Source: Candidatus Yanofskyibacteriota bacterium
GTDB taxonomy: Bacteria; Patescibacteriota; Minisyncoccia; 2-02-FULL-40-12; GWA2-44-9
Direction of reading: 5' to 3'
Length of the DNA: 33,144 bases
Assembly: GCA_016185505.1 (NCBI GenBank)
Contig: JACPNL010000008.1
Coordinates: 1 to 33,144 of the forward strand
Both the position numbers and the translations under genes were made by a program. The notes beneath the pieces were generated by a model that was given only the letters and a program-made list of their open reading frames with translations, was not told the origin of the DNA and did no database searches. Positions 29,193-31,128 of the stretch are shown in pieces. Each line of letters begins with the position of its first letter. Within the stretch, counting starts at the first letter, position 1.

Positions 29193-29660
29193 TTAATTTC
29201 TAAACTCTTCTTCTTCCGATTTATATATCTTACCCCATTTTATTCTCATTTTCTTTTCTATGAACCAGACAATTTGAAGAATAGAATAAATTAGAGCCGT
29301 TATAACCGCCGCTTCTTTGAAAAGACCGACACCAACGGTAACACCGATAGCGGCTACGGCCCACAAACTGGCGGCAGTAGTGGTGCCCTCCACCCTTGAA
29401 CCATGTCTTAAAATCGCGCCGGCGCCAATGAAACCAATACCGACGACAATATTTGAAATTATCCTTGAAGGGTCATAACCCATCGTGCCGATATATCCTC
29501 TAAAGGCGTCTATGGATATTGCCGTGAACAAAGCCGAAGCAAGAGATACAAGGGCATGAGTTCTTATACCGGCAACTTTCCGGGCAAGTTCTCTTTCAAA
29601 ACCGACAATCGCTCCAAGCCCGGCCGCAACGGCAACTTTGATGATAATAATTAATTCCAT
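29193..29660 (-). CDS. MgtC/SapB family membrane protein
   Basis: GLGAIVGFERELARKVAGIRTHALVSLASALF, GIGFIGAGAILRHGSRVEGTTTAASLWAVAAIGVTVG. Confidence 0.92.
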   Translation of the reverse strand: MELIIIIKVAVAAGLGAIVGFERELARKVAGIRTHALVSLASALFTAISIDAFRGYIGTMGYDPSRIISNIVVGIGFIGAGAILRHGSRVEGTTTAASLWAVAAIGVTVGVGLFKEAAVITALIYSILQIVWFIEKKMRIKWGKIYKSEEEEFRN

Positions 29661-29721
29661 CGTATGGCATTAGATTAGAATATTTAATTTTTAAAGACAA
29701 TGTTCACAATTAAAAAATCCT

Positions 29722-29759
29722 ACGTCATACCAACAAATTCAAGTTTGTTGGTATGACGT
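29722..29759. repeat. Hairpin/palindrome, 16-bp stem, 6-nt loop
   Basis: ACGTCATACCAACAAA-TTCAAG-TTTGTTGGTATGACGT. Confidence 0.88.
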
Positions 29760-29790
29760 TTATGTGGCTTAATATGTGGTTGCGGCCGGG

Positions 29791-29822
29791 TCTGAATACG
29801 CAAGCCGACCTGCGTATTCAGA
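29791..29822. repeat. Hairpin repeat family B, copy 1
   Basis: TCTGAATACGCA-AGCCGACC-TGCGTATTCAGA. Confidence 0.85.
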
Positions 29823-29867
29823 AGCGTCAAATGAGCAACATCCGTTGTAATCCTAACGGCCTATTGA

Positions 29868-29897
29868 CCCCTCACCTTTTGCTCAAAAGGTGAGGGG
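29868..29897. repeat. 13-bp-stem hairpin immediately upstream of a -35 element
   Basis: CCCCTCACCTTTT-GCTC-AAAAGGTGAGGGG. Confidence 0.85.
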
Positions 29898-29927
29898 TTG
29901 ACAAAGCATAGTCTGATATGATATACT
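29898..29927 (+). promoter_or_regulatory. Candidate sigma70-type promoter of an intergenic RNA
   Basis: TTGACA - 18 nt - TATACT. Confidence 0.6.
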
Positions 29928-30212
29928 AGAAACAGTAGGGTAAATTTTAGATACTGTCTCGCGAAATTGGCTCAAAAACACAGGTTTTTGGCTCAATTTC
30001 GCGAGGCCGATAAAAGGTCCCCCCCTATGGGGACTGGCTGGCCAGTACATGGCCTTCGTTCGAGGTTCGTTGTCGTTGAGAGCCTCGGCCTCGCGGAGTT
30101 CTTTTCAGGCCATTTATGGCCATTGGGCGAGCAATGCTCGCCCCTCGAAATTGGTTTCTAAAACTTTTTGGAAGTCAATTTCGCGAGGACGGTCGTAGCA
30201 TAGAGAAATGCG

Positions 30213-30240
30213 CCGGCGGCTTAGTTAACTAAGCCGCCGG
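30213..30240. repeat. Perfect 28-bp palindrome
   Basis: CCGGCGGCTTAGTT|AACTAAGCCGCCGG. Confidence 0.92.
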
Positions 30241-30284
30241 AGAAGCCTGTTTGACTCAGGCGCCGACCTCTCGACCATCCCCAG

Positions 30285-30316
30285 CTCCGCTTGAGCACCG
30301 CTCGCGGAGTTTTTGT
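30285..30316 (+). terminator. Candidate Rho-independent terminator of the intergenic RNA
   Basis: CTCCGC...GCGGAG then TTTTTGTTTGT. Confidence 0.6.
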
Positions 30317-30354
30317 TTGTCTCAAAATTCTCCGTACGGAGAAAATTGAGACAA
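30317..30354. repeat. 38-nt palindrome with symmetric AA/AA internal loop
   Basis: TTGTCTCAA-AA-TTCTCCGTACGGAGAA-AA-TTGAGACAA. Confidence 0.88.
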
Positions 30355-30363
30355 GAGAAATTT

Positions 30364-30408
30364 AAACCCGCCAATCCCTCCAGAGGCGGGCAGGCGATTG
30401 GCGGGTTT
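30364..30408. repeat. 13-bp-stem hairpin carrying a GC-rich nested repeat
   Basis: AAACCCGCCAATC-CCTCCAGAGGCGGGCAGGC-GATTGGCGGGTTT. Confidence 0.88.
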
Positions 30409-30414
30409 AGGTCG

Positions 30415-30442
30415 TGAATACGTAAGTCGGTTTACGTATTCA
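30415..30442. repeat. Hairpin repeat family B, copy 2
   Basis: TGAATACGTA-AGTCGGTT-TACGTATTCA. Confidence 0.85.
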
Positions 30443-30457
30443 ATTTTTGACAAAAGA

Positions 30458-30486
30458 TTGACAGAAAGCAAACTGGGTGTTATAAA
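30458..30486 (+). promoter_or_regulatory. Candidate sigma70-type promoter for the gene at 30517
   Basis: TTGACA - 17 nt - TATAAA. Confidence 0.65.
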
Positions 30487-30516
30487 TAAAGAGCGGGTCA
30501 AAAGGAGGGATGCACC

Positions 30517-31128
30517 TTGAAAAAAGTAGTCAAAACTACCTATGCTTGTGAAATTTGCGACTACGAGTACGATACTGCCCAAAGAGCCCTGGAATGCGAA
30601 GAGGGAGGAATTGCCATCCCCGAATTCAAGCAATTTGAAGTAGTAGAGCTTGTCAACTTAAGGCCAGGCGAGATCCTAAGGGTGGAATCCGGATTCGAAT
30701 TTCCTTTTCAGCCGGGATTGAAAGCCGTAATACATGATAATGCTACCGAAAACGCCAATCCTCATCTGTTGCCCCAAAAATACAGCTTGTACTTCTCAAC
30801 GCCCAGAGGACGCCAACTTGGCTCGAGCGTGCCGCGAGAATTTTTGAAAAGAGTTAGGGTAAAGAGCGGATTGACCTGCCCTTTGTGCAAATCTACCGCT
30901 GGTCCCACTCAAACAAAAATTGCGTATGATTATCTTAACTATTCGCCCTTTCTTCCGTTTCTAAGCACGGTCTCAGCGCAAAAGTGCACAAAATGTAACG
31001 TAATGTTTTTCACAGACGCTCAATCCATGAAAACAGAATCACTATTGAGAGAAAAGCTTAGGTCAAATGGCCGATGGCCGATGGCCGATACCAGAAAACT
31101 CGTAAGAGAAGCCGCCTTTCAGTATTAA
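30517..31128 (+). CDS. Hypothetical zinc-ribbon protein (TTG start)
   Basis: 203 aa; YACEICDYEY, LTCPLCKSTAG, CTKCNVMFF; SD AAGGAGG. Confidence 0.7.
   Translation: MKKVVKTTYACEICDYEYDTAQRALECEEGGIAIPEFKQFEVVELVNLRPGEILRVESGFEFPFQPGLKAVIHDNATENANPHLLPQKYSLYFSTPRGRQLGSSVPREFLKRVRVKSGLTCPLCKSTAGPTQTKIAYDYLNYSPFLPFLSTVSAQKCTKCNVMFFTDAQSMKTESLLREKLRSNGRWPMADTRKLVREAAFQY

Follow-up and report, generated by a model that had tools for sequence, protein, structure and literature searches.

Most of the gap beside mgtC is predicted to encode, as a gene of its own, a modular folded RNA; hairpins of separate kinds, in part dispersed, flank it. The window, meaning the whole 33,144-nucleotide stretch that was analysed, is contig C5 of a 681-kb genome (G000) whose family has 'Candidatus Yanofskybacteria' among its members. 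We think it probable that positions 29898-30316 hold a stand-alone modular structured RNA gene with strand-exchange units, which is a lineage-specific second copy of a Paceibacteria RNA family. The computations yielded a repeated unit grammar, covariation, near-isoenergetic states and homologous arrays in relatives; transcription, switching and a trans-acting role are what we infer for the RNA. Large structured bacterial RNAs are few and are often markers of unusual biology, and this one combines a fixed unit grammar, exchanged modules, a predicted two-state helix, conserved places and, in some cases, a conserved microprotein of ~30 residues.

The gap and its predicted transcription unit

The inverted repeats listed in a preliminary description of the gap were all recovered from the sequence and by an inverted-repeat search, among them a repeat with 22 nt arms (86%) at 29958-30005, an 8-bp stem read directly from the sequence at 30125-30143, an imperfect repeat at 30144-30187 that scores 57 bits against model R1 of the scaffold hairpin, and a perfect 14/14 repeat at 30213-30240. 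Perfect hairpins (arms of at least 10 bp, loop of at most 20) were counted in 856-bp tiles of the window. The 856 bp of the gap hold 6, compared with 0-2 in each remaining tile when the two tiles overlapping the gap are left out, and with a mean of 0.01 and a maximum of 1 in 100 dinucleotide shuffles of the gap. Folding z-scores were -11.8 for 29935-30360 and -7.5 for 29661-29900. The gap had been placed correctly, upstream of mgtC (29193-29660, - strand, identified by a PF02308 match) and divergent from a zinc-ribbon gene whose zinc-ribbon matches are weak. It had also been said to contain no credible ORF, and our search agrees: the only ORFs of at least 60 aa that touch it encode 64 aa (29967-30161, + strand) and 103 aa (30322-30633, - strand), and both cross hairpins. 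The 203-aa Cys-rich protein has several CxxC pairs; none of its Pfam matches passes the cut-off, the best being PF12760 with an E of 0.18.

The stretch 29898-30316 looks like one transcription unit (Table 1). Promoters similar to the one at 29898-29927 stand ahead of arrays in relatives, and CCGCTTGAG of the terminator region is also present in the G019 array. The fold z of the window array itself is -9.4, and 12 homologous arrays lie between -4.6 and -18. Across the 13 arrays compared, folding favours the predicted sense strand over its antisense every time, as would be expected if G.U pairs matter and the elements act as RNA rather than as DNA palindromes. The locus has its own predicted promoter and terminator and a conserved structure with covariation, as a stand-alone structured ncRNA would.

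Table 1. Features predicted in and around the gap, in window coordinates
Feature	Position	Strand	Basis or remark
Stand-alone hairpin, 16/16 bp, upstream of mgtC	29722..29759	.	T-rich AGGATTTTTT follows on - strand
Stand-alone hairpin, 12/12	29791..29822	.	Loop resembles that of 30415 hairpin
Stand-alone hairpin, 15/15, abuts -35 box	29867..29898	.	Partial copy at G000:C7:6201
Predicted sigma-70 promoter, TTGACA-N18-TATACT, TG ahead of -10	29898..29927	+	11/12 consensus matches
Predicted RNA gene, two units, ~385 nt	29928..30316	+	Fold z; diverged copy at G000:C17; 5' end approximate
Unit 1 scaffold hairpin	29956..30010	+	Model R1, 70.8 bits; helix covaries among 15 sequences
Unit 1 variable module, GTCCCC..GGGGAC hairpin, CTGGCTGGCCAG	30006..30087	+	77% identical to unit 2 module of recA copy
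Unit 1 strand3 GCCTCGC, alternative arm2 partner	30088..30094	+	7/7 complement of GCGAGGC just before TTCTTT; covariation
GTTCTTTT motif after unit 1 strand3	30098..30105	+	Recurs at relatives' unit ends
Small hairpin GGGCGAGC-AAT-GCTCGCCC ahead of unit 2	30125..30143	+	Sequence
Unit 2 scaffold hairpin	30140..30192	+	Model R1, 57.1 bits
Unit 2 module, tRNA-like layout	30191..30268	+	Exact GAAGCCTGTNNNACTCAGGCGCCGACC match in G019 / JACOZW010000029
Intrinsic terminator CTCCGC..GCGGAG-TTTTTG	30286..30316	+	GCTCCGCTTGAG common to arrays of G000:C17, G001, G007
Dispersed palindrome TTGTCTCAAAATT..CGTACG..AATTGAGACAA, 19 nt, 89%	30317..30354	.	Six more G000 places
Hairpin of TCCAGAGGCGGGC type, 14/14	30363..30409	.	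21-23 nt exact matches in G044, G071, G080, G083
Hairpin GAATACGTAAG..TTACGTATTC, 11-12 bp, T-rich tail on +	30415..30442	.	Places in G000:C7, C24, C31
Likely separate zinc-ribbon gene promoter, TTGACA-N17-TATAAA	30458..30486	+	Sequence
203-aa Cys-rich (zinc-ribbon-like) gene	30517..31128	+	ORF list, homology search; outside predicted RNA

Homologous arrays in relatives

Searching the genome against itself gave a match of 77% over 104 bp and, collinear with it, a second block on contig C17 downstream of recA, and this recA-side locus is a diverged copy of the window RNA. Here and below, recA, rpsR, ssb, proS and mreB are gene names assigned by inspection of the sequences. Regions downstream of recA were fetched from 25 family genomes using the recA C-terminus. 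Arrays that comprise a promoter, structured modules and a terminator stand after recA in G000, G001, G002, G006, G007, G011, G016, G019 and G020, with a more diverged array in G015 and none in many others among the 25. The relatives' arrays are longer than the window copy. In one family they occupy the recA-rpsR interval; in another family of the same order they lie beside proS/mreB, with proS on one side and mreB on the other in G041 and G043, and after proS in G044. Among the genomes seen, G000 alone has two array loci.

A strict text pattern for the scaffold hairpin matched 3 of 45 genomes and was too narrow, and the covariance model R1 was used instead. Of the 384 class genomes searched, model R1 matches 12, which all belong to one order and carry the match inside arrays; in a 380-genome phylum sample it matched only the genome of the window. 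Viral contigs contained neither the scaffold pattern nor the exact T-like arm pattern, and comparison of the gap with phages and plasmids by blastn returned nothing. The open literature searched held no description of this RNA, nor of any large structured RNA from the Candidate Phyla Radiation. Judged by this distribution, the arrays appear to form an undescribed, lineage-specific RNA family of one Paceibacteria order. Its expression is directly checkable, since related Paceibacteria co-cultures with expression data exist (PMC10936435, PMC12281837).

The site of the window copy lies between a Trp/Tyr permease-mgtC pair and lon, and the gap there is hypervariable. In the sister genomes G001 and G002 the permease-mgtC-lon synteny is kept, and the gap DNA is unrelated and carries neither the array nor the zinc-ribbon gene. 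The comparison with close genomes that had been proposed earlier therefore gave a divided answer: the array is absent at this site in both sisters, and a homologous RNA stands after recA in both, so absence at mgtC-lon does not refute the RNA. Because the gap DNA is unrelated in both, the window copy represents a gain in its lineage (or a loss in both sisters).

Being absent at the same site in both sisters, the window copy could be a recent, decayed and non-functional duplicate of the recA-side RNA; it is also shorter than the recA copy and lacks both the 5' domain and the ORF. We regard such decay as unlikely given that promoter and terminator are intact, that folding is strong, and that both scaffold hairpins score high, unit 1 being the best match to model R1. 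The unit 1 hairpin is 92-96% identical to the hairpins of G001, G002 and G006, which argues against free drift.

Unit grammar, competing helices and modules

The aligned units share one order: arm1 (CUCGC), arm2 (GCGAG|GC), a variable module of 57-141 nt, strand3 (GCCUCGC), a few nt and GUUCUUU. In unit 1 of the window, arm1 CTCGC is at 29958-29962 and arm2 GCGAG at 30001-30005. Unit 2 has a poorer strand3 and no TTCTTT, so the full grammar is found in unit 1 only. In several relatives a hairpin also precedes the second scaffold, as the one at 30125-30143 does here.

Covariation was assessed over 15-18 units, taken from roughly twelve genomes, and, as the arms are strongly conserved, rests on few independent changes. 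The arm1/arm2 helix has 90% of cells paired and double changes in 5 of 8 pairs, with a covariation score of 0.390 against 0.140 shuffled (0/500 shuffles). The arm2/strand3 helix shows double changes in 3 pairs and a covariation score likewise at 0/500 shuffles; its 98% pairing is biased, because strand3 was chosen partly by complementarity in that test. A fit-independent test used the 13 units having TTCTTT downstream, and a 7/7 complement of arm2 lay within 15 nt before TTCTTT in 12 of them, where 0.32 were expected. All three strands are altered together in G044 (CUUGC / GCAAG / CUUGC; CCCACC / GGCGGG / CCCGCC). Upon forced folding, the two states were 1.2 kcal/mol apart in window unit 1, and across 15 units the difference averaged -1.7 kcal/mol with a range of -8.7 to +6.7. 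Certain relatives prefer one of the two states by 5-9 kcal/mol, unlike what a balanced switch would show.

The covariation of both arm2 pairings together with their near-equal energies suggests that arm2 may pair with either arm1 or strand3, which repeats the arm1 sequence, as a strand-exchange switch. In such a mechanism the arm1/arm2 helix would form first, as the RNA is being made, and strand3 together with the closing stem of the module would then displace arm1 through branch migration. Each unit would thereby be able to hold two nearly equal states, one of which might be selected by a binder of the module, be it a protein, a tRNA-like partner or another RNA.

Two mutually exclusive helices that share one strand and are followed by a U-rich tract recall riboswitches and attenuators. 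Unlike these, the RNA has no evident controlled downstream gene, its units are repeated, and its modules differ strongly between species. Lying on the strand opposite mgtC, it is not an mgtC leader. A cis-regulatory role as riboswitch or attenuator in the leader of the zinc-ribbon gene (30517) would fit the shared strand, the distance of ~200 bp and the riboswitch-like alternative pairing, yet we hold it to be highly improbable. The terminator at 30286-30316 and the promoter-like site at 30458-30486 stand in between, the 203-aa protein has a full-length relative in 0 of 28 family genomes, and the recA-side copies, convergent with the rpsR-ssb genes that they face, lead no gene. The stand-alone RNA gene that we favour carries different modules in its two units. 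The unit 1 module corresponds to the unit 2 module of the recA copy, one of its pairs being changed on both sides, and the window's unit 2 module is common to unit 2 of G019. Modules thus appear to have been exchanged between units while the unit grammar stays fixed.

The unit 2 module resembles tRNA-like domains such as those of tmRNA and the viral TLS, having an acceptor-like stem (GGTCG/CGACC), a D-like arm (GCAT-ATGC) and a T-like arm (GCCTG-TTTGACT-CAGGC, 30245-30261) in tRNA order. It differs from them in that a long hairpin (30213-30240) takes the place of the anticodon arm and that no tRNA model matches it, the window giving neither an RF00005 nor an ARAGORN match. Other arrays contain further domains. 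The recA copy in G000:C17 has a tRNA-shaped domain (L002:1633-1714; RF00005, 44 bits) with an extended hairpin replacing the anticodon arm, for which ARAGORN makes no tRNA call, and the proS-mreB array of G041 contains a tRNA (L014:1646-1718; RF00005, 51 bits) whose anticodon loop reads GCA. The arrays of G000:C17, G001, G002 and G006 share a module, CCGGCACAAGATGGTGGTAGCCGG..CAGTACTGTACTACTG..CCACC, that resembles a pseudoknot plus hairpin and shows paired changes in G002 (CGGCA..TGCCG).

In the arrays of G007, G011, G016, G019 and G020, a Shine-Dalgarno-like sequence stands ahead of a short ORF; the encoded peptides, 23-36 residues long, are related to one another and have no Pfam match. Between G007 and G011, 18 aligned codons carry 8 synonymous and 3 non-synonymous differences, suggesting that the microprotein may be under selection at the peptide level. 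The window copy, which is shorter and has no microprotein ORF, would act as RNA only. A broader reading, which we offer tentatively as possible rather than probable, is a new class of modular RNA with strand-exchange units and interchangeable modules, acting in trans in ultra-small, probably epibiotic bacteria, in which some members carry a microprotein and tRNA-like domains and the present copy is an RNA-only duplicate.

The GUUCUUU of the units resembles the Bacillus boxA; this identity was rejected, the readable 16S leader in G007 having no such motif. The G044 array (L096) contains AAGGAGGTGATCC, which is complementary to the 3' end that bacterial 16S rRNA usually has, with no start codon close by. 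Matches to 16S rRNA in G007:C17, G016:C17 and G001:C5 come in separate pieces, for which introns or assembly breaks are possible.

Known RNAs and the flanking hairpins

At the gathering threshold, Rfam (including OLE, GOLLD, ROOL and riboswitches) had 0 matches in the window and, in ten related loci, one tRNA and nothing else. The tRNA-like arms and the large ornate fold could be those of a known RNA missed by the models (tmRNA, RNase P RNA, GOLLD/ROOL/OLE, a tRNA array or a TIGR array), a prospect that the empty Rfam result leaves exceedingly slim. A tmRNA identity was rejected, as RF00023 does not match in the window and the genome has its own tmRNA at C32:8427-8787. TIGR arrays consist of short regular repeats, and the window sequence has no such array. 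OLE, GOLLD and ROOL are large, long and highly structured bacterial RNAs (PMC12286853). The window RNA is like them, by size and structure only, in being a long structured RNA with its own gene that is restricted to some lineages; it differs in its repeated short unit, variable module, conserved competing strand and, in some relatives, microprotein ORF.

The preliminary description had posed a landing zone for palindromic elements and a structured-RNA locus as alternatives. The evidence points to both, side by side: the core is like an RNA gene, and among the hairpins beside it one or more types are dispersed. Those at 29722, 29791, 29867, 30317, 30363 and 30415 lie outside the RNA gene and are separate elements, of which at least the 30317 type is dispersed. 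Further copies of this type occur at six places in G000 (contigs C6, C8, C25, C26, C27 and C32) and at one in G002, with stem letters varying in complementary fashion; fewer genome copies exist of the 29791/30415 and 29867 types. The 30317 hairpin therefore resembles REP/REPIN-like palindromes in having many solitary copies, whereas the core scaffold hairpin is not dispersed and in G000 is found in the two arrays only.

These dispersed copies, the hypervariability of the mgtC-lon gap and the presence of other hairpin elements in relatives' recA-rpsR intervals would also suit a gap in which mobile or dispersed palindromic DNA elements had landed throughout, the apparent RNA being a chance pile-up. 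We give this little credence, because the R1 scaffold hairpin is restricted to arrays of fixed architecture at conserved places and the core elements retain their order, promoter, terminator and sense-strand stability.

Downstream of recA in G007, G011 and G020 (L041, L043 and L040), another hairpin element has the conserved loops GGCTTGGTTCT and CGCTGGA; its stems vary complementarily, and long inverted arms, unrelated in sequence, enclose it. L037, L038 and L041 contain an element with conserved inner ends, AATCATAGGTCGA...ACCTGTGATT, whose outer inverted arms vary by place.
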